DNA of 64,000 bases. It comes from a virus. Below the pieces are notes generated by a model, which did not search any database, had not been told where the DNA came from, and was given only the letters and a program-made list of their open reading frames with translations. The stretch is taken from the IMG/VR virus record IMGVR_UViG_3300028392_000045, positions 33,265 through 97,264 of that record; one strand, given 5' to 3'. This document shows, piece by piece, positions 2,273 through 59,253 of this stretch (position 1 is the first letter of the stretch; the number at the start of each line of letters is the position of its first letter). The translations under genes were made by a program, and so were the position numbers.

Positions 2273-3445
2273 TTATTCTAAAAATACTTCTTCAGGAATT
2301 GTAGAATCTTCAGTATCAAAATTCATATCGTCAGATTCTATAAGTTCCTTAAAGTTATCTCTCTTTCTTTCTGAGAAGTAATTACAGTCAGAATAAAGAA
2401 ACTCAAGAATTTTTTTAACACTACCATTTGAGTATCTTAAATCTCCTATTTCATTATCTCTGTCTTTATGACGGATGTAAATAGAAGTTTCAGTTAAACC
2501 TAAATGGTGTATCAAAACTTGTTGTACTTCAAGTAAAAAAGGTTTGTTACCAGTAAAACTTATATTGGGTCTACCTCCTGTATACCAGACAGAACCATCA
2601 CCATCATAATATCCTCTGATAAAGTGTCTAATCAAATTAGGATCAATATCAGGAATATGTTCTAGGATATGTGTTTTGTTTTGTACACAACCCCACTTAG
2701 CTAATGCATCACACAAAATAGGACTGCATATAGTCATAGTATAGAAATCCTGATGATTCTCATTCTCTCTAGTTCTAATGCCTATAGTATGTGTAGCACC
2801 AATAGCTTCTTTAAATTTATAAAGAAGTGGGCTATCTCCTTCAGCAAATCCTAACTTTATGTAAGTTTTTTGCTGGCAGTTATAACCATCTGCATAGAAG
2901 AGTCCAAGAAAATAAGCCTTGTCTTGGGTATCAATATTATCAAAATAATGATAATCGCAAGTGTAAGTATTATAATCTGCCTGTTCTCTTTTCATATCTT
3001 CAGGTAGATATTTCAATACAGTAGGTTTACCAATATCAAGTTGTTTAGCTACTTTAGCTGCTGATAACCCTTGCTCATAGAGATCGTAGATTTGAAATCT
3101 AATTTGAGTAGTAATTTCAGTTTTTACTCGAACCCATACCTTATGTTTACGCTGCATTTTCTCTACATAAGAATTACTTACTTTAAGTCTTTTAGCAATG
3201 TCAACTATACTAAGTCCTTCCTTTGTAAGTTCCACTACTTGTAATGCAACTTCTTCAGGAATTACTCTAGGTTTAGGTCTAGTGAACTCAACTCCTTTTT
3301 CTTTTAACCAAGTTTTAATAACTGGTCTTGAGATACCTACAATCTCACTAATCGTTCTTAATGAGGTTTTTTCTTGATGAAGACAAAGAATCTGATCAAT
3401 CAGACTCAATTTGACTTTTTCGGAAATAGCATTGTAATGTGCCAT
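2273..3445 (-). CDS. Free-standing LAGLIDADG homing endonuclease with three N-terminal HTH units
   Basis: 390 residues. Three consecutive helix-turn-helix units lie at about residues 10-45, 65-100 and 110-150; each has the pattern of a charged helix, Gly, Ile/Ala and a recognition helix (for example SLRTISEIVGISRPVIK, LSAAKVAKQLDIGKPTV). Two LAGLIDADG-like motifs follow, YFLGLFYADG and FIRGYYDGDG, each ending in the catalytic acidic residue, so it should act as a monomeric endonuclease. It sits alone between the capsid gene and the next structural gene, as homing endonucleases of T-even phages do. Its start codon lies inside an 8-bp stem (see 3441-3478), suggesting translational silencing on late read-through transcripts. 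Confidence 0.85.
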   Translation of the reverse strand: MAHYNAISEKVKLSLIDQILCLHQEKTSLRTISEIVGISRPVIKTWLKEKGVEFTRPKPRVIPEEVALQVVELTKEGLSIVDIAKRLKVSNSYVEKMQRKHKVWVRVKTEITTQIRFQIYDLYEQGLSAAKVAKQLDIGKPTVLKYLPEDMKREQADYNTYTCDYHYFDNIDTQDKAYFLGLFYADGYNCQQKTYIKLGFAEGDSPLLYKFKEAIGATHTIGIRTRENENHQDFYTMTICSPILCDALAKWGCVQNKTHILEHIPDIDPNLIRHFIRGYYDGDGSVWYTGGRPNISFTGNKPFLLEVQQVLIHHLGLTETSIYIRHKDRDNEIGDLRYSNGSVKKILEFLYSDCNYFSERKRDNFKELIESDDMNFDTEDSTIPEEVFLE

Positions 3446-11600: not shown

Positions 11601-11944
11601 AAACCAGAAAAACCAAAGCATTCAGTAATATAATAAGCAAAATGCCATTCTAAATCTCTTATAGATGGTATTACTTGTTTCCTAGCTTTAGTCTTTTTAA
11701 TAGTATCAAAGATAGAACAGAATTTAGCATAAAATCCTATACGTCCTGGACAGTATCTATACTTACCAAACTGTTCTACCCAAATACCTTCTATCAGTTT
11801 CTTTCTATTAGCTTTCCAAGCTTCTCTATATCTTGGATCTTCAGGATGATATTTAGGAGGTTCAAACTGATCTAAGATATAGTTAAGATTTTCTATCTTA
11901 ATCCAATCTACATTCGTAGAATAAATGCCCAGATTATACTCCAT
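8615..11944 (-). CDS. terL: Terminase large subunit interrupted by an intein
   Basis: 1109 residues, of which 190-545 are an intein (10310-11377). The spliced product is 753 residues. The Walker A motif VVGSRGGGK ends just before the intein and its Ser is the first residue after it. Walker B is ILYEEVG. The RNase H-like nuclease shows acidic motifs near residue 903 (VTHDPY), 972 (YEANRG) and 1067 (FDGVSALLG). It packages DNA into proheads through the portal. Packaging needs protein splicing, because the intein splits the ATP-binding loop between Lys and Ser. The gene overlaps portal by 14 bp and the amidase gene by 37 bp. Confidence 0.92.
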   Translation of the reverse strand: MEYNLGIYSTNVDWIKIENLNYILDQFEPPKYHPEDPRYREAWKANRKKLIEGIWVEQFGKYRYCPGRIGFYAKFCSIFDTIKKTKARKQVIPSIRDLEWHFAYYITECFGFSGFEDDDRYSGDERLLKDTSTLSISDLADISNSKGKLKEYKKPRDILFELHDKPLGRPLYNNNTKNFLVVGSRGGGKAMLETEYIYKETGYELIKNAQVGDKIYGSDGNLTTITGVYPQGITDVYEVEFKDGRKCYTNPEHLWTVNKNNKVISTIDMLEKGYKYAHKRSGFTYRYKVKQNKPVNYPKQELPIDPYILGYLLGNGALTSSTPKVATSEMEVLERFKNSFPDYDIVYDKSTNNNYTIVHRGEKINIGTKVNGTPLLQHQNLLHRDLKALGLNVGCKSKFIPDIYKYASIDQRMELVRGLMDSDGSISKGYASFSSTNETLLNDLQEVLRSLGIKSQKGIDKRTGKVHDIKGCITTRNDCWRLFITTNLPIFFISRKLERITKKNINEYTSIVSIKKMDYQAPTICISVDAKDHNFLTTNYVVTHNSYFFGLALALYELVFDSKKYADQGKSQATIDIAAGIGSKSTELMKKLIDSMHELKVDPKFGVYGKEGDDKDIFEPCPYYRNMKGDGSANTSWVHEIAASKNGVWKKLGSGSEVNHKIYSTNKKGGAQEGAGGRRNVILYEEVGLMQLLIEAWTSNTAVVTTDGEQFGIQVGIGTSGDLEMVRPAQKIFTHPKDYNCIEFDDQCFFLPAPLTDKRFKDADGNTDIQAAYEFYIKRREDAAKSSDPRVLLAERMNYPLQVDDMWLSGSTGYLPVKEAEAREKELIKDNLFEKLGTAIDLFYDSNTPTGINYSVIPKSKSNAIFNWPLQPTESTKGEFMMYISPEKLKINGQLPPDAVIVTHDPYVSDDPVKGGSLGVTYFIVNPKYLSFGLPGYQIAATYIGKHEISVDGYNDIVFKGLHFYGLQSRNLWYEANRGDKIRGYAIRKNKAHLLCLRPQFEQGQYLFKKNATQTGFNVGDRLAKITLLDGLSEILLKELPDGKRVIETIPCLFTVKQIRQYTLEGNFDGVSALLGLPLAINEQEHYAVNRSGTKVLHGLTKQLRYARH
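10310..11377 (-). mobile_element. Intein with LAGLIDADG endonuclease in TerL, Ala at position 1
   Basis: 356 codons within terL. The N-terminal splicing block begins AMLETEYIYKETGYELIKNA, so residue 1 is Ala, not Cys or Ser. The B block has the TxxH motif (TNPEHLW). The DOD endonuclease has ILGYLLGNG and LVRGLMDSDG. The C-terminal block ends NYVVTHN, followed by Ser+1. Ala1 inteins of the KlbA type splice by direct attack of the +1 nucleophile on the N-terminal junction; here that would be Ser. The insertion point, between the Lys and Ser of the P-loop, is a classic protected target. Third positions are richer in A/T than in the exteins, supporting lateral acquisition. Confidence 0.9.
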
Positions 11945-46080: not shown

Positions 46081-46221
46081 ATGGAATTAAAAAAAGAAGA
46101 AGGACATTTATGCTATCATATGAGTGCTTATCACATGATACATTACTCATATAGATTTCATATTTATCAGACTTTTATTATTTTAGGCACAGACGATACT
46201 GTATTAATAGGAATGATATGA
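46081..46221 (+). CDS. Micro-gene array member 1
   Basis: 46 residues: MELKKEEGHL start, His/Tyr-rich middle (YHMSAYHMIHYSYRFH), end LIGMI. ATGA overlap with the next unit. First unit after the terminator. Confidence 0.5.
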   Translation: MELKKEEGHLCYHMSAYHMIHYSYRFHIYQTFIILGTDDTVLIGMI

Positions 46222-46361
46222 TAATTAAATCAGGTGGTTTATACATTAGCTATTTTGCTTATCATTGTAGCTTTCTTACAAAAGAAATTAGTTTTACATA
46301 CCCCATCAGGAAAGTAAGTATTTCTGATGAATCAACTTCTTTAATGCTAATAAAAATATGA
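46218..46361 (+). CDS. Micro-gene array member 2
   Basis: 47 residues: MIIKSGGLYI start, end SLMLIKI. ATGA overlaps at both ends. Confidence 0.5.
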   Translation: MIIKSGGLYISYFAYHCSFLTKEISFTYPIRKVSISDESTSLMLIKI

Positions 46362-46495
46362 ATTTACAGGCTTATGAAAGTTTTCTATTACATGATAGCT
46401 ATTATCAAGAACTAGAAAACCTATTCGAATTTTTTCCTTATAGTGATATATATTTTGTGGATAATACTTTTTCACATTCAATTATTTTAACATGA
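46358..46495 (+). CDS. Micro-gene array member 3
   Basis: 45 residues: MNLQAYESFL start, acidic and aromatic middle, end HSIILT. ATGA overlaps. Confidence 0.5.
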   Translation: MNLQAYESFLLHDSYYQELENLFEFFPYSDIYFVDNTFSHSIILT

Positions 46496-46617
46496 AAATA
46501 CTTGTACGTAATGACTAGATGGGAGATCACTCTTCTGCTCATTATGTAAAACTCACTTTATGTTGGTCAGATATAAGAATAGATAACTTAACAAAAAAAT
46601 TGATAGTATGTGTGTAA
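46492..46617 (+). pseudogene. Micro-gene array member 4, interrupted by TAG
   Basis: The expected start gives MKILVRND, then an in-frame TAG (46516-46518), then ATG and 32 more codons ending KKLIVCV. The two parts together have normal length and ends. Either the unit is inactivated, or translation restarts at 46519. TAG is a genuine stop elsewhere in this phage. Confidence 0.45.
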
Positions 46618-46751
46618 TCTTGAATAATAGTTATGTACACTATGATAAATATATTTATCGAAAGTCTATAATATTAAATATAGTACCAGCACATCCATTC
46701 AATGTGTTTACAAAAAGAAGTACAGCATCAAAATTAATAGTAATATGCTGA
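46608..46751 (+). CDS. Micro-gene array member 5
   Basis: 47 residues: MCVILNNSYV start, end SKLIVIC. The start lies 10 bp inside the previous unit, and the stop 7 bp inside the next. Confidence 0.5.
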   Translation: MCVILNNSYVHYDKYIYRKSIILNIVPAHPFNVFTKRSTASKLIVIC

Positions 46752-46891
46752 TAAAAGGCCATGCAAGTGTTCTCTGTTTTTATATGGATAAAGACAGAAT
46801 AAAAAATTACATCGTTACAGGAGTAAAAACTTTTGGTAGTGTTAAGTCAAGTAGATACTATGAAATAACTCATACAATTATTATATTATGA
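46745..46891 (+). CDS. Micro-gene array member 6
   Basis: 48 residues: MLIKGHASVL start, Lys/Arg-rich, end HTIIIL. ATGA overlap downstream. Confidence 0.5.
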   Translation: MLIKGHASVLCFYMDKDRIKNYIVTGVKTFGSVKSSRYYEITHTIIIL

Positions 46892-47037
46892 GAATAATAT
46901 GTGTATCTGATAGTGGTAAATATTTTTACGAGCAGAAAAATTTTGATAAAATAGAATGGTGCTCTTATGGTTCAATGTTAGGTGATCGTAATTACACTAA
47001 TGCAATTATATTATGCGAATCAAAACTATACTTATAG
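46888..47037 (+). CDS. Micro-gene array member 7, run-on end
   Basis: 49 residues: MRIICVSDSG start. The usual end (TNAIIL) is followed by nine extra residues to a TAG, overlapping the next unit by 25 bp. Confidence 0.45.
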   Translation: MRIICVSDSGKYFYEQKNFDKIEWCSYGSMLGDRNYTNAIILCESKLYL

Positions 47038-47156
47038 GAATCAATTTTCTTCATGTAGACATTTCTAGTATTAATTTAATATTTCAAGATATTAAAATGC
47101 TAGATCATTTTACAGCAGTCTATCCTGGCTGTTCACAAATTATAAATTTAAACTGA
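47013..47156 (+). CDS. Micro-gene array member 8
   Basis: 47 residues: MRIKTILIGI start, end SQIINLN. The next gene starts within its stop (TGATG). Confidence 0.5.
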   Translation: MRIKTILIGINFLHVDISSINLIFQDIKMLDHFTAVYPGCSQIINLN

Positions 47157-47461
47157 TGAGAGAGATAAACATTCCCGAAAGCTTGAAAGAGCAAATTATT
47201 GAAATGCGTAACATGGCAGGTATTTCGATAGAGCCAGCTAAAACGACTCACGATCGTCTACATTCATTTCTTTCTGGTGAGCCTAACGATCAACTGCAAA
47301 AAGTAATGAATGTTTGTATGAAAGCTTATAAGCCTTATATGACAGTATCTCCATTAATGTTACAGTCCTATGGTGTGGCTATGTACTGCTTACCAGAATG
47401 TAATGATACAGAGCTACTAAAAATTGCTAAAGAGATTTATGAGACGTTAAGTCACATGTAA
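47156..47461 (+). CDS. Helical protein inserted in the array
   Basis: 101 residues, MREINIPESLKEQIIEMRNM at the start, all helical, Met-rich. Codon use is less A/T-rich than the flanking micro-genes, indicating a different origin or selection. TGATG-coupled to the preceding unit. No family recognised. Confidence 0.55.
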   Translation: MREINIPESLKEQIIEMRNMAGISIEPAKTTHDRLHSFLSGEPNDQLQKVMNVCMKAYKPYMTVSPLMLQSYGVAMYCLPECNDTELLKIAKEIYETLSHM

Positions 47462-47493
47462 TTTTAAATTTCAAAATCTTTAATTTTAAAAAC

Positions 47494-47643
47494 ATGAAAA
47501 AGAAAACCAGAAACATCAATATAGAAGAATTGGCTATTGTCAATATTCTAATTTTTACAATCGGATTATGCATGAGTTCTTTAATGGGACTTGTATTTTG
47601 TGGGTTGTATACTTTCTTTTCGTTAGTAGAATTTGACAAATGA
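47494..47643 (+). CDS. Small membrane protein in the array
   Basis: 49 residues. Basic N terminus (MKKKTRN) and one long or two short hydrophobic segments (IVNILIFTIGLCMSSLMGLV, then LYTFFSLV). ATGA overlap with the next unit. Confidence 0.5.
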   Translation: MKKKTRNINIEELAIVNILIFTIGLCMSSLMGLVFCGLYTFFSLVEFDK

Positions 47644-47771
47644 AATTGACAAAACATTATTATAAACCTATTTTATTTGATAAAAGAATTACGGATATAT
47701 TAAGAGTAGATATATTTGATAATATTTTAGGACAAGGAAAATTTTTTACTCCTATAATGGTATTGATATGA
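47640..47771 (+). CDS. Micro-gene array member 9
   Basis: 43 residues: MKLTKHYYKP start, end PIMVLI. ATGA overlaps. Confidence 0.5.
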   Translation: MKLTKHYYKPILFDKRITDILRVDIFDNILGQGKFFTPIMVLI

Positions 47772-47911
47772 TGCTGAAAACAAACTATGTGAATTTTACT
47801 TACCATCATGGTTATTTTTACTTTGCATCTAAAAGTGCGCAACCTATACAAGGTAGATATACTAGTAATCATGAATCTTATGATGAAGCAAATTTAATAG
47901 TAATAATATGA
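47768..47911 (+). CDS. Micro-gene array member 10
   Basis: 47 residues: MMLKTNYVNF start (double ATG), end ANLIVII, close to the junction consensus. ATGA overlaps. Confidence 0.5.
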   Translation: MMLKTNYVNFTYHHGYFYFASKSAQPIQGRYTSNHESYDEANLIVII

Positions 47912-48039
47912 AAATACAATTTAGAATATCAGGCATAGCTTATTTCCTAGACAAACAAAAATCAGGATTAAGTAATCCTAGTGAAGATTTAAAATATTTT
48001 GCAAAATGGAATACTAAAGAATTGATACTATGGAACTGA
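47908..48039 (+). CDS. Micro-gene array member 11
   Basis: 43 residues: MKIQFRISGI start, end KELILWN. The next start lies 10 bp inside. Confidence 0.5.
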   Translation: MKIQFRISGIAYFLDKQKSGLSNPSEDLKYFAKWNTKELILWN

Positions 48040-48209
48040 ATCTACATTATGTACCATTCTTCTATGGATCAATAATTACAAGAACTGATTTTATAAGATT
48101 TCAATTGGATGGTGAGTATCGCATTGAACACTTTATCAAAACGTCAACTTACCTGGATGCAGCTATATTTGAGGAGGTAGACGATAGTGCTTTTTTGATT
48201 TTAGTATAA
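48030..48209 (+). CDS. Micro-gene array member 12
   Basis: 59 residues, longer than most: MELNLHYVPF start, acidic insert (FEEVDDSA), end FLILV. TAA stop. Confidence 0.5.
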   Translation: MELNLHYVPFFYGSIITRTDFIRFQLDGEYRIEHFIKTSTYLDAAIFEEVDDSAFLILV

Positions 48210-48219
48210 CTGAAAAATT

Positions 48220-48366
48220 ATGCAAGTAATCTTAATCAGACCAAGTTATCATCCTTGTAATTATTTAATGCCTTATTATGTTAGAAATGCGTCATCAATT
48301 GACTTAACTTTACTATGTTACTTACGCATTCCTAGTCATGGTAATATCATCACACAAATACATTAA
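48220..48366 (+). CDS. Micro-gene array member 13
   Basis: 48 residues: MQVILIRPSY start, end NIITQIH. Separated from neighbours by 10 bp and 1 bp, so not overlapping. Confidence 0.45.
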   Translation: MQVILIRPSYHPCNYLMPYYVRNASSIDLTLLCYLRIPSHGNIITQIH

Positions 48367-48367
48367 T

Positions 48368-48511
48368 ATGCATTTAGAATACTTTTACAATAGTATAGGC
48401 TATTATGATAATGAGGTAAACATAAATTTAGAACTTCTTCCTAACTGTAGTCCAATAGAAAAAGCTCTTACATCAATTTTATGGGATGCAAAATTAATTA
48501 TAGCTATATGA
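48368..48511 (+). CDS. Micro-gene array member 14
   Basis: 47 residues: MHLEYFYNSI start, end AKLIIAI. ATGA overlap downstream. Confidence 0.5.
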   Translation: MHLEYFYNSIGYYDNEVNINLELLPNCSPIEKALTSILWDAKLIIAI

Positions 48512-48639
48512 ACATAAAAACATACTTAACTAATCGTACAAAGCATTATAAAATGAGTTTTGACTCTGATATTGCTAGAGGTATATATAATGCAAAAAGA
48601 AGTAATAGGTTTCACTCAACTTTTCTAATATGTTTATAG
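48508..48639 (+). CDS. Micro-gene array member 15
   Basis: 43 residues: MNIKTYLTNR start, basic, end STFLICL. TAG stop, 10 bp inside the next unit. Confidence 0.5.
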   Translation: MNIKTYLTNRTKHYKMSFDSDIARGIYNAKRSNRFHSTFLICL

Positions 48640-48740
48640 TAAATAAATATGGATGCGGAGAGTTTTGGTATAAACAGACACTATTTCTGTATTATGACCA
48701 TTTAGATGAAATATATTACGGATTAAAACTAATAGAATGA
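48630..48740 (+). CDS. Micro-gene array member 16, short
   Basis: 36 residues: MFIVNKYGCG start, end GLKLIE. ATGA overlap downstream. Confidence 0.45.
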   Translation: MFIVNKYGCGEFWYKQTLFLYYDHLDEIYYGLKLIE

Positions 48741-48874
48741 AACTATATACTTACAATCCAAGTATTACACACTGCCATCATAATAGACACAGCTTCTTTA
48801 ATCAGTCAAATACATTTTTTATTAGAGTATTTGGTATTAGTGAAGACTTTACTAACACAATAATTATAATATGA
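48737..48874 (+). CDS. Micro-gene array member 17
   Basis: 45 residues: MKLYTYNPSI start, His-rich middle, end TNTIIII. Shares MKLY with the next unit. Confidence 0.55.
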   Translation: MKLYTYNPSITHCHHNRHSFFNQSNTFFIRVFGISEDFTNTIIII

Positions 48875-49005
48875 AACTATACTCTTATTATAGGTTTTCT
48901 TTTTATAACAGTTACCAGCGCCAATGTAAAAATATAGTAAAAGATGATTATATTCTTATTGATTCTATTGATCCAGATGCTAGTACACTATTAATACTAA
49001 TCTAA
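48871..49005 (+). CDS. Micro-gene array member 18
   Basis: 44 residues: MKLYSYYRFS start, end STLLILI. TAATG coupling to the next unit. Confidence 0.55.
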   Translation: MKLYSYYRFSFYNSYQRQCKNIVKDDYILIDSIDPDASTLLILI

Positions 49006-49142
49006 TGAAGTTAAAATTATTACAATCAGGTGTAGGATACCATCAAAAGAATATCCATATAATAAATTCTACTGCCTTCTTAGGGATTTTTCATATCTCA
49101 AATAATGTATATTTAAATAACTCAATGTTAGCATGGATCTAA
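49005..49142 (+). CDS. Micro-gene array member 19
   Basis: 45 residues: MKLKLLQSGV start, end NSMLAWI. The next start lies 10 bp inside. Confidence 0.5.
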   Translation: MKLKLLQSGVGYHQKNIHIINSTAFLGIFHISNNVYLNNSMLAWI

Positions 49143-49276
49143 AAGCTATTACAGTAGGAAATGGATATACCGATTATCTAGTCCATTACCAATTTAATTC
49201 AGTGATGAGATATCCTACCAAATTCACTATCAAATTCACAAATAAAATACTTAATAATCTAATTTGTATCCAATGA
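49133..49276 (+). CDS. Micro-gene array member 20
   Basis: 47 residues: MDLKAITVGN start, similar to the previous unit in Gly-Tyr position, end NNLICIQ. ATGA overlap. Confidence 0.5.
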   Translation: MDLKAITVGNGYTDYLVHYQFNSVMRYPTKFTIKFTNKILNNLICIQ

Positions 49277-49431
49277 TGATAATAGCTAAATATACTCTGC
49301 ACCATTTTGATTTAAGTCAACATCACAGCAATCTTAATGATAATAGATTTTGTCCTATTCATCCATTAGATATTGATGGAAGTATTAGTGTAATGACAAA
49401 AAGATTAAGCAACAAAATAATTCTAGCATGA
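49273..49431 (+). CDS. Micro-gene array member 21
   Basis: 52 residues: MMIIAKYTLH start, His-rich, end NKIILA. ATGA overlaps. Confidence 0.5.
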   Translation: MMIIAKYTLHHFDLSQHHSNLNDNRFCPIHPLDIDGSISVMTKRLSNKIILA

Positions 49432-49562
49432 GTATAGATATATTTAGAGCTAGACATTGTTTTGGCAGTTTAATGCTAAGTACAATAACTCACAATTATA
49501 TTTATCCATCTGTTAATTATGGAAGTTATTCTTACAGAGCAAATCTAATAATAAATATATGA
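49428..49562 (+). CDS. Micro-gene array member 22
   Basis: 44 residues: MSIDIFRARH start, end ANLIINI. ATGA overlaps. Confidence 0.5.
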   Translation: MSIDIFRARHCFGSLMLSTITHNYIYPSVNYGSYSYRANLIINI

Positions 49563-49681
49563 AAATAAATCTAGTGTTATTAGCACGACCAAAGCTTTAT
49601 AGACCTGTAGCTTTTCAAAATTATAAAGCTTATTTACCTTTAGAAAATAAAGAATTTAATTTGCAAATTTGTATACAATGA
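49559..49681 (+). CDS. Micro-gene array member 23
   Basis: 40 residues: MKINLVLLAR start, end LQICIQ, like member 20. ATGA overlaps. Confidence 0.5.
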   Translation: MKINLVLLARPKLYRPVAFQNYKAYLPLENKEFNLQICIQ

Positions 49682-49803
49682 GAATACATCCATCAAAATT
49701 CAATAATCATTATTTCTCTAGGAGAAATTATAAATCAGAACCTAATAAATGTTTGTTGTATATAGGCTATTTACTTTATGGAACTGTAATAATAGAAATA
49801 TGA
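49678..49803 (+). CDS. Micro-gene array member 24
   Basis: 41 residues: MRIHPSKFNN start, end TVIIEI. ATGA overlaps. Confidence 0.5.
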   Translation: MRIHPSKFNNHYFSRRNYKSEPNKCLLYIGYLLYGTVIIEI

Positions 49804-49937
49804 TTTTATTTAGAAATGATTTTCATACTTATTATTCTTTACACATATCTCATATTTGGATTGAATATCCTAATTGTAGTTGGCTTCTTGTAGATAGTCC
49901 AGCAAAAACTAAAACATCTAATTTAATATTGTTATGA
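49800..49937 (+). CDS. Micro-gene array member 25
   Basis: 45 residues: MILFRNDFHT start, end SNLILL. A longer start at 49749 lies within the previous unit and is unlikely. ATGA overlaps. Confidence 0.5.
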   Translation: MILFRNDFHTYYSLHISHIWIEYPNCSWLLVDSPAKTKTSNLILL

Positions 49938-50065
49938 TGCTAAGAGTTAAAAAGATGCCTACTAATTTTATAAATAGACAACACTTTTATAAAGAGTCAT
50001 GGTGGACATTAGGGCAAATAAATCATCTGAATAGCCATTCCAATACAAAAATAATTTTGATATGA
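49934..50065 (+). CDS. Micro-gene array member 26
   Basis: 43 residues: MMLRVKKMPT start (double ATG), end TKIILI. ATGA overlaps. Confidence 0.5.
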   Translation: MMLRVKKMPTNFINRQHFYKESWWTLGQINHLNSHSNTKIILI

Positions 50066-50193
50066 AAATTAAAAGAGGAAGGTTTCTAAGTGCTTATTTT
50101 ATGCATGTATCAAATTTTTCAAATATTCCTAATTTAGATATTAATTTAAAAGTAAGCTATTTTTCACATACTTGTAAACTTAAATTAATATAA
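50062..50193 (+). CDS. Micro-gene array member 27
   Basis: 43 residues: MKIKRGRFLS start, end CKLKLI. TAATG coupling. Confidence 0.5.
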   Translation: MKIKRGRFLSAYFMHVSNFSNIPNLDINLKVSYFSHTCKLKLI

Positions 50194-50324
50194 TGGAATT
50201 AGATTGCAGATATTTTGGGGCTTCTCATTATAAAATTGATCCTGCTGCTCATAAAACTAATACTGGAATTTATTATATATCTGGTAAACCTAATGGACTT
50301 ACAAAAAATTTAATATGGATATGA
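50193..50324 (+). CDS. Micro-gene array member 28
   Basis: 43 residues: MELDCRYFGA start, end KNLIWI. Its stop overlaps the HNH gene start (ATGA). Confidence 0.5.
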   Translation: MELDCRYFGASHYKIDPAAHKTNTGIYYISGKPNGLTKNLIWI

Positions 50325-50572
50325 ATGATCGGTACAGAGCTAGGAAGCATAAAGTAAGATATGAGAAAATAGATAAAAATCTTGTGTACGACAGGGATGG
50401 ATGGAAATGCTATATCTGTGGTATTTTCATCTCTCCTAGTCCTGGCTATGACTTACCTTACAATGCTACCTTAGATCATGTAATACCTATGTCTAAAGGA
50501 GGAGACCATACTTATGATAATGTTAGAGCTTGCTGCTATTCCTGTAATCAGAAAAAAGATGACTCATTGTGA
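50321..50572 (+). CDS. HNH endonuclease inserted in the array
   Basis: 83 residues from MNDRYRARKH; a start two codons upstream is possible, but this one keeps the ATGA overlap. Zinc-binding Cys pairs (KCYIC and CYSCN) flank the HNH core ATLDHVIPMSKGGDHTYDN. A compact nuclease of this kind is often a homing or mobile gene. It has replaced or joined an array unit with both overlaps intact. Confidence 0.85.
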   Translation: MNDRYRARKHKVRYEKIDKNLVYDRDGWKCYICGIFISPSPGYDLPYNATLDHVIPMSKGGDHTYDNVRACCYSCNQKKDDSL

Positions 50573-50712
50573 ATCTAAAAGACTTTACTCAAAGCTACCT
50601 ATGTTATTACTATGATCAAGAATATGTTTGGAGTAATAATGGTTTTAGCTGTTATAAAACAGAAATTTTAAATATCTCAAGGGCAGATGGCTACTTAATA
50701 ATAGAAATATGA
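50569..50712 (+). CDS. Micro-gene array member 29 with GTG start
   Basis: 47 residues. GTG overlaps the HNH stop (GTGA): MNLKDFTQSY start, end GYLIIEI. The rare start suggests that a preserved overlap matters more than the codon. Confidence 0.5.
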   Translation: MNLKDFTQSYLCYYYDQEYVWSNNGFSCYKTEILNISRADGYLIIEI

Positions 50713-50831
50713 ATTTAAGAACACAATATAAATATGCAAATTTCCTTTCCTTATGTGATGTAACTGAATTTTGGAGAGCTGGAATGTATTTTGGATATAG
50801 GAATAAAACTAATTTAATAATACTATTATGA
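50709..50831 (+). CDS. Micro-gene array member 30
   Basis: 40 residues: MNLRTQYKYA start, end TNLIILL. ATGA overlaps. Confidence 0.5.
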   Translation: MNLRTQYKYANFLSLCDVTEFWRAGMYFGYRNKTNLIILL

Positions 50832-50962
50832 AAATAACTTATCATGTATTTGATTCTAGCTTTGAAGATACATACAGATATATTCGTGCTAATATAAATA
50901 ATAGCTTAGAACAATCTCCTTTAGTTTACCTAACTGATACTAGTCATTTAATTTTAATCTAA
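50828..50962 (+). CDS. Micro-gene array member 31
   Basis: 44 residues: MKITYHVFDS start, end SHLILI. TAATG coupling. Confidence 0.5.
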   Translation: MKITYHVFDSSFEDTYRYIRANINNSLEQSPLVYLTDTSHLILI

Positions 50963-51153
50963 TGCACTTAACTGTATATTACACAACACCTTGGTTTTCT
51001 ATAAAAATACAACGGCCTTTAATTAAATCCATATTTACTAGTATGAACATAAATATGTATAATCATCTGATTACTCATAATAGCATAAAAGACAATACTA
51101 AATTATTAAAACTTGAATTATGCCATTACTATGAAATTAAATATATACAATAA
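50962..51153 (+). CDS. Micro-gene array member 32, run-on end
   Basis: 63 residues: MHLTVYYTTP start. The family-like end (TKLLKLEL) is followed by 10 residues overlapping the next unit by 23 bp. Confidence 0.45.
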   Translation: MHLTVYYTTPWFSIKIQRPLIKSIFTSMNINMYNHLITHNSIKDNTKLLKLELCHYYEIKYIQ

Positions 51154-51262
51154 TTTTACTGGATACTTTAGTTCTGAAGTATTAAGAAATAATGCAGTTT
51201 ATTACACGTATTATGTATCTGAAAAAGCAACATCACTTAATAAAAATTTAATACTAATATGA
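51131..51262 (+). CDS. Micro-gene array member 33
   Basis: 43 residues: MKLNIYNNFT start, Tyr-rich, end KNLILI. ATGA overlap. Confidence 0.55.
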   Translation: MKLNIYNNFTGYFSSEVLRNNAVYYTYYVSEKATSLNKNLILI

Positions 51263-51384
51263 AACTAGTAAACTATCATGATTATCAAGCATACATTTTT
51301 AGACATATCCCATCAAATAGCTTAAGTAAATGTGATATTGTAAAACATTGTAAAGTACATAAAAATTTACTTTTCTTTATCTAA
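51259..51384 (+). CDS. Micro-gene array member 34, last of the early arm
   Basis: 41 residues: MKLVNYHDYQ start, end NLLFFI. Its last 18 bp overlap, on the other strand, the vestigial tail at 51367-51435, marking the convergent boundary of the two arms. Confidence 0.5.
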   Translation: MKLVNYHDYQAYIFRHIPSNSLSKCDIVKHCKVHKNLLFFI

Positions 51385-51435
51385 ATACAAATCTTGAAGT
51401 GTATATAAGGGGCGTAACTGCTTGACTTGACTCAT
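51367..51435 (-). pseudogene. Second copy of the C-terminal tail of the giant virion protein
   Basis: 22 codons starting at an ATG that overlaps the GIY-YIG stop (ATGA): MSQVKQLRPLYTLQDLYLD followed by Lys-Glu-Lys and TAA. The tail of the 2295-residue protein ends QLSPLYNLEDLYVD, Lys-Asn-Lys; 13 of the last 20 residues are identical. It is probably the original 3' end of that gene, separated by the homing endonuclease insertion. Confidence 0.7.
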
Positions 51436-52349
51436 GTTCGTATATATTTGAGAGTCAATCCAATTCCAGCACTTCCTTTATTTAAACCTTCAGGATATTT
51501 AGTACCTAATAAATTAATCCAATAGTCTTCTTTATTTTTTAATTCATGGGCTTTACCTTTTTCTAATTCTTTTATAGATAACAAATTCATGTCTTTGCCT
51601 GTTAAGAATTCAGTTAATTTAGTATTATTTCTCTTTTTAAGCACAGTTTCTTTATGTGCTCCAAGTCTTGTAGATAATCGTCTTGTAGTTAATCCTACAT
51701 AAGGTATTACTTCATTATCATATACTAATTGATAGATAAACCCTTCTGATTCAGGATGTACACTTTTATTACTACATGCAGAACAACCTCTATTTTTTGA
51801 AAGAATATTACAAGGTTTAGTTTCAAAGCTAGTTTTACATTCTTTACATGTGACTTCTACTTTGCCTAATCTTCTAAAAGGATATTCTATTTCTCTAAAA
51901 TCATAAATGTCACCATTTCGCTCAATACTTTTTTCTACAAAAGAGTCAAATGATTTTCTTGTTATGTGGCCTGATATTAAACTTCCACATTTAGAACATC
52001 CTCTTCCTTCTAAATGATCTTTAGCTGTTTGCTCAAAGTCCCCATGATCTTTACAAGTTATTATCAATTTTTTCTTCCCTCCTACATACACAGATTTAGT
52101 ATAGTTATATCTACCTTTGTGTTTTTCTATTGCTCTATTTATCCAGTAAGATGTTTTATCTATTGCACATTCTATTGTAGGTTTAGATCTAGTTAAACTT
52201 TGAGCTTGAACTTCGAGTAATCCATAATGATCTTGTACTAAAATCTTATTTCTTTGCCTTTTAAATTCACCAATAATTGTTAATTGTGGATTTGCTTGTG
52301 CAACTCTTTTTGTAAAATTTTCTAGTATTAATTCAGTAATACGTGTCAT
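51432..52349 (-). CDS. GIY-YIG homing endonuclease with zinc-finger DNA-binding region
   Basis: 305 residues. Two repeated Cys modules lie at about residues 108-125 and 170-195 (ITCKDHGDFEQ with GCSKCG; VTCKECKTSFE with GCSACS), resembling the DNA-binding zinc repeats of phage endonucleases. The GIY-YIG core is near residue 206: FIYQLVYDNEVIPYVGLTTR with the later Arg and His, followed by NKEDYWINLLGT. It starts 17 bp after the stop of the giant virion gene and is followed by a copy of that gene's tail, so it inserted close to the 3' end. Confidence 0.85.
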   Translation of the reverse strand: MTRITELILENFTKRVAQANPQLTIIGEFKRQRNKILVQDHYGLLEVQAQSLTRSKPTIECAIDKTSYWINRAIEKHKGRYNYTKSVYVGGKKKLIITCKDHGDFEQTAKDHLEGRGCSKCGSLISGHITRKSFDSFVEKSIERNGDIYDFREIEYPFRRLGKVEVTCKECKTSFETKPCNILSKNRGCSACSNKSVHPESEGFIYQLVYDNEVIPYVGLTTRRLSTRLGAHKETVLKKRNNTKLTEFLTGKDMNLLSIKELEKGKAHELKNKEDYWINLLGTKYPEGLNKGSAGIGLTLKYIRT

Positions 52350-52365
52350 ATTAAATTAATTTTGT

Positions 52366-55300
52366 TTACTTATTTTTGTCTACATATAAATCTTCAAGAT
52401 TATATAAAGGGGAAAGTTGTTTGTGTTTCAGGAAGTTATTAGCTCCTTTAGGATCTTGGAATAGAGTATATCCTTTAATACCAGGAATAAGCTGTAATAG
52501 AAATTTCTCTCTTTTACTCAGCCCTTCATACTTACCTGACTCTATTAGCTCTCCTGAAAACAACTCCGTAAAGTTGGTAATTAACTCAAGATCTCTAGCA
52601 GGTACAATAGGATCTTTGATAGCATTAATTAATTCAGTAGGGTTATAGAAAGAAGATACTTCAAGTAAAGCTCTGTTACTTTGATAAGCTAGTAAATCCA
52701 TAAACAAATCATCCTCGTCATCATCTCCACTATTAAGAGCTAGAGCTATAACAGTAAATGCAGAAATCATCAATAATTCTAGCACTACTCTTTTTAGATT
52801 TTCTTTCTGATAATCCTCTAACTCATTCCAATTAGCTAATAGAGATTTTATTTGACTTATTTTTTCTTTAGGCATAAAGTATTTACCTACAAGACTTATA
52901 GCTGACTGATAGGCAAATGTACCAGCAGTTCTATACATGCCTTCAGTCATATCTTGTAAAGTAAAATCATAACCTTTAGTTTTTAATCTTCTTGACATAC
53001 CTTCAAAAAGCCAACCTCTATGTAAACCTACCATAGCAAATACAGAGTGCTGATAGATAGCTGCTTTGTCTTCTGGTGATAATGCTCCATCTACTTGTGA
53101 TGTAATAGTTTTAATCCTTGATGTAAGGTTATCTATTACAGACTGTGACATACTGTGAATAGCTGTACCATCAGCAGTATTAATCATAGAGTAAGCGGAT
53201 ACCATTTTATCGAAGTCTAATCCTGCTCTTTGTGCTTCTTTAGCAGTATAGAATTTACCTTCATGCATTCTAAAGTTATCAAGTACTGAAATCATTACAA
53301 TAGCTTTAGAGAAATAATCTCCAGCTTGATAACCATACATTAAAGTCTTATCTGGTTGATTACGCATCAATACATGCTTGTCTAGGTCATTAAATAGATT
53401 ACGCATATCTTCACCTAAACCAAAAAAACGCATTAGAGTGCTAATCCTATCTGTGGATCTATACTTCTCGTGTGAGTTAAGTATACTAGGTAGCATACTA
53501 AAGAATTCTTTATTAGCAAATGCAGAAGATTTTACTGTAGTATATTTTCCTATTAAAGATTCTATAGTAGCAAAGACCTTAGTACTAATTAAGTTAGAGG
53601 TCATAGTAATAAAGTTCAAACCTAAGTTTTTACTTCTTACCCAGCCACTTAATCTATCTACTAACTTAGATACGTTTACATCATTACCTAGAATTTCTAC
53701 AGTATAGTCGTCTCTTTCTTTACCTGAAATATGTACATCTAGGAAATTCTTTAATGCAGTATAAGACCAAGTAGACTCACCTGACTTCTGTTCTTTACCT
53801 ACTAGTCGTCTAGTTTTAGATAACTGTAGAATATTTTCAAAAGTAGATAGCTTCTTTGACTTCTCTATATAGTTAGTAGCCATCTGCTTGTAAGCTACCA
53901 TAGAAGAAAGTATATCAGAGCTAATTCTTGATGGATCTTTTAGCTTACTGATAAAACGTAAAGGAGCTTGTTCTAGTAGAGTACCATCATTTAACTTAAT
54001 CTCATTATTAAACTCTGTATCATCTTCCTTTCTAGTAATAGCTCCACCTACATTAGCTTTAAGTCTTTTATACAAATCAGGATCTTTATTAAACATAGCA
54101 TCTAACATACTTTCGTAGGTTTGAGGAGCTAGTCTAATATTAGCTTCAGGTAAAGTAAAGTCAATTTTTCTCTTTTCTTTTTTCAAGTATTCTAATACTT
54201 CTTGCTGTCTAGCAGTTAGTTTGGCATAATCCTTATTAGTATAGTCTATTGTAGTAAATTTTTCTTTACCTCGTTTTACTTCACTACCATCTGATGGAGA
54301 TACAAGCTCACCTTTAAAATATTTTATAGAACCATCTTCATTAGTTGCAGTATTTAAAGACCACCATAGACTAAATTGATTAGGACTAAGATGTATTTTT
54401 CTAAGGTTAATAATTTCTTGTGCATTATCAACTACTTTAGTATTATACTTATTCCAGTTATCAATTGCCCTATTATAACTTTTTAGTCTTTCTAATTCTT
54501 TTGCATAGAAAGTTCTAGTAGCAGCATCTAATCCAGGATCAGTCATAAGTAGTTTATAACTCTGAATTAATTTTTGTTCTTTAGCTCTTTCAGTAAAATC
54601 TTGAGAAAATCTATATTGAGTATTTAAATTTTGATAAAACTCTTTTTTATTTTGTTCCCATTGAGTATAGTGTAATCTATGTAACCAGTATCCAGTTTTC
54701 TTTCTTACAGTTCTTACTTTACCAGTTTTTTTGTCTTGTTCTACATAATTATGATATTCGTATACCCAGCTCATATCTTTACCAATAAAATCTTCTACAC
54801 CTGTCATAAAGCTATCAGCCCAAGCCATTGTAGTTCTTCTAATGGCATTATTCAAATCGAATACAAGCTTATGTACTATACGATTTAAAGTATCTGTATT
54901 ATTTCTAATAGGAGCAAACCAAGTCTCTAAGAAATTAGAATCTTTATAAAAGAACTTTAATCCTTTTTTCCAATCCCATCCTATTTTAGCTTGAATCTCT
55001 TCATCAGTTAAGTCAGGAAATTCTTTTCTAAGTCCATCACCAACTTCTCCTACTCCATCTTCATATACCAATTGAGCATAGGCTTGCTGTATTACATCAA
55101 ATCTATTCTTATGGTTAGTAATAAGTTTATCTAATACCATCTTTCTAGCTGAACCTATAATACTATCTTGACCTATAATAGATTTTAACTCTTCTAAGAA
55201 TGGTCTATAATAACCAATAAAAGCTGCTAATTGAGTGACTAAATCATTATTAGTTATTGCAGTACTATTTCTATCTCCTAAATACATACCATGACTAGAT

Positions 55301-58300
55301 TTCTTTACATCAAAGTAATTCTCTAGCCATTTAAAAGCACTATTTAAATCGTTATTAAGAAAGCCTAAAAACTTATAAATACCAAGACCATTGACGTTAC
55401 CTTCTAGTTCTTCAGCAAGAGACTTAATTTGTTTGTCTACAGACTTAATTGCATCTTCAGGTATGTTATTTCTTTTACGTAATGCTTTTTGTCTTTCTTT
55501 CAAAGAGCTAATCTGACCTTTTAGATAATTCTCTTCATCCTGTAGACTATAGTAGATTTCATCTCTTACTACATTCAAAGTAGGTTCTTGTAAAAAAGTA
55601 TCAGTAATATTTTCTAAGTAGTCTGTAAGTTCTTTAGTCTTAAATAAATTTAGGAATTTTCTCCATAAACGCATTAGCCAAGTATCTACACGAATAGGAG
55701 CTAACTTATTTTTTAATACTTGATTTAGCTGCTTACCTAGAATTTCTATCCTGGCCTTACGGTCTGCCACTTTATCATCTAAATTAAAATCTTTCTTATA
55801 TCTTTCTTTGTAGGTTTCATACTCAGAAAAGAAAGGACTTTGCTCAACTAGATCATAAGCTTTTTGAAATTCAGTAGTTCCTTCACTATTCATTACAGCA
55901 ATGTGAGCTACTTCTTCTCCTAACTGCTCTACAGTATAGCCATTACCTAGAGCTACTACTTTCTTAGTAAAGTCAACTAAAGCATTTACATCTCTTAAAT
56001 TAAGATTTGACTCTTTTGCATAATCATCTAGTGTAGATAACTTTAATCCTGCTTTAGTCAATAAATTCAGTAATTTAGTCTCTACTTCTGATAAATTTTT
56101 AGTAGGTGTAGTATCTATATTACCTAGTGGATCTGAAGATAAATTAGGTATTTTTTGAAATGGAAGTTCATCAGGCTCAAAAGGAAGTGCAGTATTAGGT
56201 CTTGTACTAGATAGTTTAACTTCACTTCTAATTAAACTTCTAGGATATTTTTTAGCTACTTCTTTTAAAGCTGCTATTTTAGTATTAATTAAAGCTTGAT
56301 TAGTGTATTCTTTTTCTTTTACTTGCAGATTTTCTAGCTCCTCAGAATTAGTTTTTAAATAACTTTCCCAAACTTCATCAATTCCTAGTCCTACATCTGT
56401 CATATTAGTAATGTCATAATCTTCTACTTTAGTATTAAAAGGAGCATCATAAGGTACATTTTTCATAAACCAATTTCCATTTTGTTTATAAAACCATGTA
56501 TCATTTGCATAGCCTGTATACTGACTTTTTAATACAAATTTATCAGGTATAACTGTAGCTCTGGTATCTAATTTAGTTTTAACGCTGATAATGCTTTCTT
56601 TTATATTGTCTTTAGTTTGAGTAGGTTGAATACCTGAACTAACCCTATTGTTTTTAGTAATTTTAGGTGTAACTAACTTACCATACCTATGATCTAATAT
56701 TCTATTAATTCCATCAATAATTTTTTTAGTTTGATAAGGAATATCTTCATCATATTCTAATCTAAAATTATTGCCTGTAAGAGCTATACCCAACTCATTA
56801 TGATGATGTGCAAGATTGTCTATAATAGATGCTAGATTAGGTTGTACTACATCTATATTTTTTAAAGCTGGATATTTAGTATAGCTTACTCCGAGTAATT
56901 CAGATTTTTTATCTTTATTTACTTTTTCAGAAGCATCCCATACACTACCAGAATATACATCAGTATTAGCAGCCCATAAAATATCTTTAGATTGTGGGTA
57001 TATTTTAAATTTGATTTTACCACCTCCACCTTCTAAATGCCCTATTGTTTTATCTATAGGTTTAGTATAAGCAGAAATAGCAAATTGTCCTCCTGCTTTT
57101 TCATTATCTTCTATATGCTGTAATAAATTTTGCATCATAAGATCTACATCAAATGATGAGTAAGCACCTACTACAGAACTAAACTCTTGTCCTCTTGAAT
57201 ATACTTCTTCAGGGTTATATTGAATATTATTTATTTTTTTCCACTCGTCTATAATTTCTTTAGACTGTTCATATTCTTTGTTTTTTTCTATGAAATGATA
57301 TAATAAAGTGTTTTTTAAAGGAACTATTTGGAGATAAAAATCTAATATTTCTTGTGAATTTCCATATAATTCATCTTGGTATATATCATGTTTAGACCCA
57401 TCCTCAAACTCTAAATGGAATTTATCAGGACTTGGAGGTTCCCATTGATTTTCATCTGCCAAAAAGGTTGCTGGATCTCCTTCTATAAATTTAGCAGATT
57501 TCACCTTTTTACCTGTTATAGGATCTATTTTACCAATAATAGATTTTTTTTCTATTTTAACCTTATTTAAATCAACATCTTTAACATCTCTAGCTAATTT
57601 TCCAATATGATTACTTGCTTCTTGATAGGTTTTAAACTTCATATTATCAGGAGTAGTGTATTCTACTTCATATCCTGGAAGTATAAGCTTACTATTAGAA
57701 TAAGCTAATAAATCAGCTAAATCTTTTAATACTAGATTATCAGGAAGTTTATCTATTTCTACTTCTCTTTTAAATAATAGCTCTTTGATTAAAGATTTTA
57801 TCTCTTTTAATAGTCTTTTAAGTAGTGATATAAGCTTACCATCTTTTACTTTATCTAACCTATCAGCAGTCATCATACCAAGAAGTTCTACAATAGCTTC
57901 TTCTTGTTGTTCTTCTAATGTGTACTTTGTTTTTAAATCATTTTCAGTAATAATAAATTCATCTTTTGTAAAAAGATTCTCATTTAAAAAAGTTGATAAC
58001 CTTGTATTTGTATCATTAATTTGAATAAAATATCTTTTTGAACCAAATAAATTATCTGATGTGACTTTTGCACCAATTAAATCTGTTATTTTATTAATCC
58101 CCCAATCTTCAAAATCATGACGAAGATTATTATATTTATAAACATAATCTCTCTTAATCCTATCTAATACTTCTTTACCTCTACCATATTCAAGTTCTTT
58201 AAGTAAGTTTTGATATAGACTAGAAAAATTTTTCAAATACTCACTATTTAATTTATTCCATTCTTTACCATGTTCTTTAAAAGCTTCATTATACTCATCT

Positions 58301-59253
58301 TCTGACATAACACCTTTCATAAATGCAAAGTCAGGTTTATATCTATCTTTATTTTTTTGTACCCAATCTATAAAGTTATCTTTATTAAACTCTATATCAT
58401 TTTTATTTTTAATAGCTCTAATAATAGGGTGTCCTAATATCTCATGTATAGGCGAGTCTAATGTAGCATAAGCTAAGTTTATATAGGCTACTCCATCTTC
58501 AATCTTCCCTTTGTATTCTTTAGACCTATCTGATTCTATCTTATAAGGCATACCTATCCTATCTGCTAGTCTAGCAGCTAAGTCTCTAATAGTTTTTTCA
58601 GAAGCTATTATACCTTCATCATTACTATTTTGATAGTTAATATTAGATTGATTTTGTGCGTCTTGTTTTTTGCCCCAATCATATTTATTAATTAAATAAT
58701 CTAAGGCTGTAGCATGAGAAGGTTCTCCAAGTTCTTTATAATAAACAACAGGTTTATTTTTTAATTTACCAGATTGTAACCATTCTCTAATAAATTTATG
58801 TTGTTCAGGTTTAATAGTAGTTGTTGGAGAAAGTATCCATTCTATATATTTCTCAACACTTTCTTTTGTAGATTTAGTTCTTATTAATCCTTTTTGTATT
58901 TCACTTTCAACAGAACTAAAAGGATTACCAAATTGATTATTAGTACCATTAACTCTTAAAGAAAATATGCCACCAATAGATTTAGCATATTGTACTCCTG
59001 CTGTTTGATAAACAGATTGGATTATAACATTACCTTCTTTAGTTTTATTTCCCAGCTTAGAATAAATATTAGATACTGAAACAGTATCTTTTTTTACTAA
59101 AGTATTAGCCAATTGACTAGAATCAGGGAACTCTTGGCTATTATTTGAGTCCTGCCATACTTGAATTTTAGCAGCTACTACAATAGCAGGTAGATTCAAT
59201 TCTCTACTTAAAGCAATTACATCAGGATGATTGATATTAATACAAGAAGCCAT
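52366..59253 (-). CDS. Giant virion-associated multidomain protein
   Basis: 2295 residues, downstream of the virion RNA polymerase in the same operon. The N-terminal region (63-115) has IYSKLGNKTKEGNVII and RVNGTNNQFGNPF, the signature of a DUF4326-like domain seen in large phage proteins. A zincin-like motif IHEILGHP is at 270-276 (one residue longer than a canonical HExxH). Near 1115, GEEVAHIAV may be a second, degenerate metalloprotease-like segment. The rest is long and helical, with a hydrophobic segment near 2140 (VLELLMISAFTVIALAL). In crAss-like phages such giant proteins are capsid cargo injected with the polymerase; the role here is inferred. Confidence 0.75.
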   Translation of the reverse strand: MASCININHPDVIALSRELNLPAIVVAAKIQVWQDSNNSQEFPDSSQLANTLVKKDTVSVSNIYSKLGNKTKEGNVIIQSVYQTAGVQYAKSIGGIFSLRVNGTNNQFGNPFSSVESEIQKGLIRTKSTKESVEKYIEWILSPTTTIKPEQHKFIREWLQSGKLKNKPVVYYKELGEPSHATALDYLINKYDWGKKQDAQNQSNINYQNSNDEGIIASEKTIRDLAARLADRIGMPYKIESDRSKEYKGKIEDGVAYINLAYATLDSPIHEILGHPIIRAIKNKNDIEFNKDNFIDWVQKNKDRYKPDFAFMKGVMSEDEYNEAFKEHGKEWNKLNSEYLKNFSSLYQNLLKELEYGRGKEVLDRIKRDYVYKYNNLRHDFEDWGINKITDLIGAKVTSDNLFGSKRYFIQINDTNTRLSTFLNENLFTKDEFIITENDLKTKYTLEEQQEEAIVELLGMMTADRLDKVKDGKLISLLKRLLKEIKSLIKELLFKREVEIDKLPDNLVLKDLADLLAYSNSKLILPGYEVEYTTPDNMKFKTYQEASNHIGKLARDVKDVDLNKVKIEKKSIIGKIDPITGKKVKSAKFIEGDPATFLADENQWEPPSPDKFHLEFEDGSKHDIYQDELYGNSQEILDFYLQIVPLKNTLLYHFIEKNKEYEQSKEIIDEWKKINNIQYNPEEVYSRGQEFSSVVGAYSSFDVDLMMQNLLQHIEDNEKAGGQFAISAYTKPIDKTIGHLEGGGGKIKFKIYPQSKDILWAANTDVYSGSVWDASEKVNKDKKSELLGVSYTKYPALKNIDVVQPNLASIIDNLAHHHNELGIALTGNNFRLEYDEDIPYQTKKIIDGINRILDHRYGKLVTPKITKNNRVSSGIQPTQTKDNIKESIISVKTKLDTRATVIPDKFVLKSQYTGYANDTWFYKQNGNWFMKNVPYDAPFNTKVEDYDITNMTDVGLGIDEVWESYLKTNSEELENLQVKEKEYTNQALINTKIAALKEVAKKYPRSLIRSEVKLSSTRPNTALPFEPDELPFQKIPNLSSDPLGNIDTTPTKNLSEVETKLLNLLTKAGLKLSTLDDYAKESNLNLRDVNALVDFTKKVVALGNGYTVEQLGEEVAHIAVMNSEGTTEFQKAYDLVEQSPFFSEYETYKERYKKDFNLDDKVADRKARIEILGKQLNQVLKNKLAPIRVDTWLMRLWRKFLNLFKTKELTDYLENITDTFLQEPTLNVVRDEIYYSLQDEENYLKGQISSLKERQKALRKRNNIPEDAIKSVDKQIKSLAEELEGNVNGLGIYKFLGFLNNDLNSAFKWLENYFDVKKSSHGMYLGDRNSTAITNNDLVTQLAAFIGYYRPFLEELKSIIGQDSIIGSARKMVLDKLITNHKNRFDVIQQAYAQLVYEDGVGEVGDGLRKEFPDLTDEEIQAKIGWDWKKGLKFFYKDSNFLETWFAPIRNNTDTLNRIVHKLVFDLNNAIRRTTMAWADSFMTGVEDFIGKDMSWVYEYHNYVEQDKKTGKVRTVRKKTGYWLHRLHYTQWEQNKKEFYQNLNTQYRFSQDFTERAKEQKLIQSYKLLMTDPGLDAATRTFYAKELERLKSYNRAIDNWNKYNTKVVDNAQEIINLRKIHLSPNQFSLWWSLNTATNEDGSIKYFKGELVSPSDGSEVKRGKEKFTTIDYTNKDYAKLTARQQEVLEYLKKEKRKIDFTLPEANIRLAPQTYESMLDAMFNKDPDLYKRLKANVGGAITRKEDDTEFNNEIKLNDGTLLEQAPLRFISKLKDPSRISSDILSSMVAYKQMATNYIEKSKKLSTFENILQLSKTRRLVGKEQKSGESTWSYTALKNFLDVHISGKERDDYTVEILGNDVNVSKLVDRLSGWVRSKNLGLNFITMTSNLISTKVFATIESLIGKYTTVKSSAFANKEFFSMLPSILNSHEKYRSTDRISTLMRFFGLGEDMRNLFNDLDKHVLMRNQPDKTLMYGYQAGDYFSKAIVMISVLDNFRMHEGKFYTAKEAQRAGLDFDKMVSAYSMINTADGTAIHSMSQSVIDNLTSRIKTITSQVDGALSPEDKAAIYQHSVFAMVGLHRGWLFEGMSRRLKTKGYDFTLQDMTEGMYRTAGTFAYQSAISLVGKYFMPKEKISQIKSLLANWNELEDYQKENLKRVVLELLMISAFTVIALALNSGDDDEDDLFMDLLAYQSNRALLEVSSFYNPTELINAIKDPIVPARDLELITNFTELFSGELIESGKYEGLSKREKFLLQLIPGIKGYTLFQDPKGANNFLKHKQLSPLYNLEDLYVDKNK

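Follow-up and report, generated by a model that had tools for sequence, protein, structure and literature searches.

A GIY-YIG endonuclease gene between two diverged copies of a virion gene's 3' end in a crAss-like phage: a probable homing element that replaces the end of its target

We found that, in a crAss-like phage, an intact gene for a GIY-YIG endonuclease lies between two diverged copies of the 3' end of a virion protein gene, and we consider it probable, on the evidence of one relative and 18 codons, that the unit spreads by homing and in doing so exchanges the 3' end of its target gene. Homing endonucleases of phages are usually seen in introns, in inteins or between genes. The original prediction for this DNA was that the element had arrived with its own diverged version of the target's last codons, replacing the native end and leaving the old one behind. 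This reading was largely supported by our analysis, in that the gene of the sole usable insert-free relative (G001; IMGVR_UViG_3300017774_003070, 103,829 bases) ends like the distal copy and the divergence between the two tails is mostly silent.

Target gene, endonuclease and second gene end

The DNA analyzed is a 64,000-nucleotide stretch (the window) that forms part of a 97,264-base crAss-like phage record. In it, the target gene is unbroken and full-length and is followed, after a 16-nt gap, by the endonuclease open reading frame (ORF), beyond which a mini-ORF carries the second copy of the gene end (Table 1). The coordinates originally given for the 2,295-codon gene, the endonuclease, the distal ORF and the ATGA overlap were correct, and the description of the target as a virion gene was borne out by two matches: the gene matches the virion structural protein phrog_37651 (E = 1.3e-22), and its C-terminal 699 aa match Gp49 of crAss001 (tblastn, 2e-19). 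The crAss001 protein has been detected in virions by mass spectrometry and is among the RNA-polymerase-associated proteins packed there (PMC10172136). The spacer ahead of the endonuclease is similar to the sequence ahead of other start codons in the same phage.

Table 1. Features of the locus, with positions in the window
Feature	Positions	Strand	Sequence or basis
Target gene, 2,295 aa, crAss001 Gp49 homologue (virion RNA-polymerase-associated cargo protein)	52366-59253	-	
Proximal 3' end, expressed and putatively imported, in frame with the 2,295-codon gene	52366-52422	-	KQLSPLYNLEDLYVDKNK, then stop
Spacer, 16 nt, A+T-rich, ahead of the endonuclease ATG	52350-52365	-	ACAAAATTAATTTAAT
Endonuclease gene, intact, 305 aa	51432-52349	-	
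GIY-YIG catalytic domain, residues about 203-285	51495-51743	-	GFIYQLVY...YVG...R...KEDYWI; PF01541, stretch 14-96 of 51432-51782
Distal mini-ORF, 22 codons, its ATG overlapping the endonuclease TGA (ATGA)	51367-51435	-	MSQVKQLRPLYTLQDLYLDKEK, then stop
Distal 3' end, probable displaced native copy	51367-51423	-	KQLRPLYTLQDLYLDKEK, then stop; homology to the proximal end and best match to the G001 gene end
Native 3' flank of the target gene, with weak conservation at the corresponding position in G001	51307-51366	-	
Last ORF of the convergent tiny-gene array	51259-51384	+	

The assignment of the endonuclease to the GIY-YIG type, made earlier from its sequence, held up: PF01541 matched its C-terminal 116 aa above the cut-off (24.7 bits; cut-off, 22.6), and Y206, G219 and R228 are invariant in an alignment of seven sequences. 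The 305-aa gene also matches the endonuclease phrog_681 (E = 2e-22). The N-terminal part of the protein is treble-clef/zinc-ribbon-like, with cysteine pairs and a match to DUF4379 below the cut-off. No intein, Hint or LAGLIDADG domain was found among the domain matches of the protein, a search of solved structures by sequence gave no match, and its AlphaFold model (mean pLDDT, 49.5) was too poor for use. A cousin of the enzyme is encoded in G001 (L018:8762-9541), with an N-terminal stretch of 121 residues that is 44% identical to that of the window's enzyme; it has a T5orf172-type nuclease domain, and its gene follows a RepL-like replication gene and shows no tail repeat. In these two enzymes, a predicted DNA-binding part is combined with different nuclease domains. 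At the junction of the endonuclease and the distal tail (51410-51457, minus strand), we also observed two repeats, one inverted (TTGACTC...GAGTCAA) and one short and direct (GTCAAGTCAAG), which are possibly a binding site or a repair scar.

On the opposite strand, about 30 tiny ORFs, most of them 40 to 50 aa long, form a tandem array at positions 46081-51384 (plus strand), and many of their stops overlap the next ATG (ATGA). The C-termini of the encoded products are hydrophobic (e.g., NLILI, VIIEI and TIIII), and the A+T-rich stretch ahead of each start also codes for the C-terminus of the previous ORF. The array appears to encode a tandem family of small proteins. An HNH endonuclease gene within the array (50315-50572, plus strand) overlaps the end of the preceding ORF and the GTG of the next one (TGA/GTG) and appears to be another scar-free insertion; a similar small HNH gene is present in G001 (L018:10633-10881). 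The large terminase gene (TerL, 8615-11944) contains an intein of about 356 aa (10310-11377, minus strand) with a LAGLIDADG domain (PF14528, 6e-12) and an Intein_splicing match below the cut-off, situated at the Walker A motif (GSRGGGK^S). This intein is absent from many IMG/VR relatives at 54 to 56% match, and the match in G001 is of comparable length. The major capsid protein gene (3519-5117) is followed directly by a gene for a LAGLIDADG endonuclease with helix-turn-helix domains (2273-3445, minus strand), beyond which a tail-repeat screen of the record found no duplicated capsid-gene tail.

Divergence of the two ends and identity of the native one

The proximal and distal tails can be aligned without gaps over 18 codons and a stop, with 13 of the 18 residues identical. 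The 13 identities counted in the original prediction stand, but they had been set against 20 positions, and the homology spans 18 codons. At the nucleotide level, 39 of the 54 coding positions are identical, the 15 differences corresponding to 28% divergence; with the stop included, 49 of 72 nt match, and the longest exact stretch shared by the aligned tails is 7 nt. The distal copy scored 67 against the proximal tail (BLOSUM62, 22 aa), and the best scores of 1,000 shuffled tails against all six frames of the window were 31 ± 4, with a maximum of 47. The homology of the tails is far above chance. It starts just after F-[LF]-K, the point at which other crAss-like phages reach the end of the conserved gp49 domain.

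The nucleotide differences between the tails comprise 6.5 silent changes on 10 sites and 8.5 replacing changes on 44 sites (pN/pS, 0.30). Thus, the synonymous divergence that the original prediction had proposed to compare is high (pS, 0.65), and the replacement divergence is low (pN, 0.19). When an equal number of changes was simulated under neutrality, the silent count was reached in 1.4 to 4.5% of stop-free cases (P = 0.014 to 0.045), a stop codon was present in 57% of all cases, and amino acid replacements as conservative as those observed arose in 1 of 5,000. The excess of silent changes and the conservative replacements argue that most of the divergence arose while each copy coded for a working protein end, and they suggest that the tails evolved apart as functional gene ends, most simply in different phages, and were joined later.

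The G001 gene is 60% identical to the window gene over the last 699 residues, has no endonuclease directly behind it and ends in ...NEFLKSRNLKPVYSAYEFFVGEEEK. Since in other crAss-like phages the protein stops at F-[LF]-K or just beyond it, as in crAss001 (...IPFFKQ), the tail is an extension common to the window phage and G001. When the last 27 nt and 60 nt of 3' flank were compared with the gene ends of G001, the distal copy ranked the orthologous end first of 171 (score, 32; next, 24) and the proximal copy ranked it 27th of 171. The reverse comparison, of the G001 end with 122 ends, placed the distal copy 1st and the proximal copy 12th. With the last 18 codons and the stop compared as DNA, the orthologous end ranked first for the distal copy (32; runner-up, 16) and fourth for the proximal copy (score, 14), and in a position-anchored shuffle test the counts were 0 of 1,000 for the distal copy and 153 of 1,000 for the proximal one. 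In protein sequence, both copies are recognizable homologues of the G001 tail: one comparison gave scores of 33 for the distal and 28 for the proximal copy, and another gave 31 and 27, each ranking first; because the G001 tail has diverged from both copies in protein, this level alone is not decisive.

We also compared the flanks. The 60-nt native flank alone ranked the orthologous end first of 171 in G001, with 33 of 1,000 shuffles reaching its score. When the flanks of the window phage and G001 were aligned locally by themselves, with no anchoring of position, the similarity was not significant. Orthology of the flank would hold whichever tail is foreign; it is only the 18-codon DNA comparison that favors the distal tail as the native one. 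The final 5 codons and stop of the last ORF in the convergent array are antisense to the distal tail, which ties this tail to the native flank. Together, the G001 comparisons and the convergent neighbor indicate that the distal copy sits at the ancestral gene end. The expectation that insert-free relatives should end like the distal copy is therefore matched by G001 (n = 1), and the reading of the distal copy as the old native end, still joined to its native flank, is largely supported by this one relative, 60% identical. We infer, with good support, that the proximal end is of foreign origin; this falls short of demonstration because a donor cannot be recognized from a single relative, nor a tree built on 18 codons.

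The same data bear on the possibility that a free-standing endonuclease inserted together with a local duplication of the last codons, target-site-like or by slippage, and that the copies then diverged in place. Such a duplication would need no foreign donor, it is consistent with the presence of the same 18 codons in both copies, and the ATGA at the start of the distal copy could allow translation and hence selection. We nevertheless consider it unlikely, as a nucleotide divergence of this size, mostly silent or conservative, is unlike that of a released copy. In addition, the released distal copy should change faster, yet it is the closer of the two in DNA to G001, and the endonuclease has stayed intact over the time that such divergence would require.

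Alternative explanations and recurrence

The record is a metagenomic virus contig, and strain variants commonly confuse assemblers; two variants, with and without the endonuclease and each with its own gene end, could have been joined during metagenome assembly. We regard this as improbable, given that the frames are clean and the junction between the endonuclease and the distal tail is a neat ATGA overlap. The absence of any exact stretch longer than 7 nt between the tails also makes a join by overlap at the repeat unlikely.

It is less probable still that the distal 22-codon ORF is itself functional, either as a small peptide or as a tail that a frameshift at the ATGA would add to the endonuclease, for example for capsid entry with the cargo protein. 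ATGA start/stop overlaps are common between adjacent genes in this phage, and the tail is conserved in kind; however, folding at the overlap was unremarkable (fold z, -0.65), and homology to a normal gene end and its flank accounts for the conservation without a new function.

Least probable of all is a group I or group II intron or an intein that carries the endonuclease and is spliced, with the distal tail as the true end: although GIY-YIG enzymes are commonly intron-encoded and NCBIfam gave a weak match, below the cut-off, to a group I intron endonuclease model, no Rfam intron was found at an E value of 0.5 in 44-60 kb, the noncoding DNA in the insert amounts to 16 nt before the endonuclease and 0 before the distal ORF, the gene has a complete end of its own ahead of the insert, and an intein is opposed by the lack of in-frame continuity (a stop before the endonuclease and a separate start) and of a Hint domain. 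For a splicing product, which the original prediction had named as the outcome that would speak against it, there is neither a detectable splicing element (Rfam) nor room for one.

Returning to a homing element that replaces its target's end, we searched for relatives, for a donor and for further instances. Single-protein scans of IMG/VR with the C-terminus of the gene or with the endonuclease found no close relatives, and a tail-specific DNA pattern found no relatives, records very near the window possibly lying outside its scope. With a conserved-motif pattern, G001 was the only IMG/VR record carrying the gene; one further match (L021) was unrelated, as were 31 bacterial loci on genome contigs that matched the same pattern. 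A TerL-based search gave many relatives at 54 to 56% TerL identity, whose contigs were fragments without the gene or were too distant. No donor of the proximal tail was found in the IMG/VR protein, pattern or TerL-based searches. The idea that the tail was copied from another virion gene was rejected, as the six frames of the window contain no other similar tail.

When all ORF ends in the complete 97,264-base record were screened for a tail repeat within 4 kb downstream, this case was the only one found, and the same screen of G001 found none. Among 12 endonuclease-bearing phage stretches (about 370 kb), no endonuclease was flanked by the tail of its neighbor; of the matches above threshold, one linked a pair of short ORFs 120 bases apart, and the other two were upstream, one to the similar end of another endonuclease and one between short ORFs. 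A stricter screen of 600 kb of crAss-like contigs (loci partly overlapping) also found no tail repeat. Since recurrence is the mark of a mobile element, the lack of a second instance in the related and endonuclease-rich phages screened counts against a homing element.

Comparable systems and a proposed route of homing

Homing that replaces the 3' end of a gene has been described for the WHO elements of yeasts (PMC7282813) and for fungal mitochondrial mORFs (PMC3630166). In the WHO elements at FBA1 of Torulaspora and Lachancea, as in the phage, the endonuclease lies directly behind the full-length target with a diverged 3' fragment beyond it, and, as we propose here, homing swaps in the donor's 3' end and displaces the old end downstream without splicing (PMC7282813). 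The WHO nuclease is intein-derived and has a zinc finger (PMC7282813), whereas the enzyme here is of the GIY-YIG type, so that the phage unit is not a member of the WHO family but would work like one. WHO elements also differ in that they lie in a eukaryotic chromosome rather than a phage, replace a long 3' part (FBA1 from base 668, compared with at least 18 codons here), form clusters rather than a single unit and have had their cleavage shown experimentally, which here is a prediction (PMC7282813). In the six frames of the window, we found no further, older displaced tails as in the WHO clusters.

The mORFs of atp6, atp9, cox2 and nad3 in Glomus sp. and Allomyces macrogynus resemble the phage locus in that an endonuclease ORF separates the inserted C-terminus, which is expressed, from the native one that was displaced, as well as in strong silent and weak amino acid divergence (63.5% DNA and 91% protein identity for atp6) (PMC3630166). 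They differ in being mitochondrial, in the LAGLIDADG type of the Glomus atp6 enzyme, in the greater length of most of the ends and in their better phylogenetic support, with a close insert-free relative (PMC3630166).

Among phage systems, the free-standing seg and mob endonucleases of T4 are likewise encoded by stand-alone genes adjoining a conserved phage gene, and they spread, as we propose for the present element, by double-strand break repair with co-conversion of the flanks (PMC2988022). A term search of the text of that review of phage homing endonucleases found no mention of duplicated target ends, and the ribonucleotide reductase case that it cites (reference 91 therein) leaves the gene in pieces, unlike the case here. 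HEG islands, which are nuclease genes at the boundaries of genetic exchange, are similar in that phage endonucleases drive the replacement of neighboring alleles and in that DNA-binding parts are repeated; in the passages of that article that we consulted, replacement of a 3' end within a gene with retention of the old end was not found (PMC10448857). We found no phage precedent for gene-end-replacing homing in the open literature, a scope that leaves out most subscription journals.

In the route that we propose, two related phages would co-infect, and the GIY-YIG endonuclease, made up of a zinc-ribbon-like DNA-binding part and a nuclease, would cleave an allele of the gp49-like gene that lacks the endonuclease, close to its last codons. 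Repair of the double-strand break would copy the last 18 or more codons of the donor and then the endonuclease gene, and the recipient's own old gene end may act as the downstream homology arm. The outcome would be the arrangement seen here: a chimeric but uninterrupted gene whose end is new and diverged, the endonuclease gene immediately after it and, beside the old 3' flank, the former end as a detached 18-codon fragment. The target gene would lose the cleavage site in this process, and the differences in its new end would probably give resistance to the enzyme. We infer the cleavage, the resistance of the new end, the mobility of the unit and the existence of a donor from the arrangement of the locus.

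In our judgment, the chances are evenly balanced that the unit represents a class of phage homing element that arose independently of the yeast WHO elements and the mitochondrial mORFs, in which a GIY-YIG enzyme is paired with a cleavage-resistant 3' end of its target and the C-terminus of an RNA-polymerase-associated virion protein is swapped at each round of homing, the old end being left as a scar that also serves as a homology arm. By carrying its own gene end, a unit of this kind would explain both harmless insertion at the end of an essential coding sequence and immunity to its own enzyme. Since tail repeats are short and are missed by ordinary annotation, such elements could be commoner than is known, and a simple screen for downstream tails could be applied to all phage genomes.
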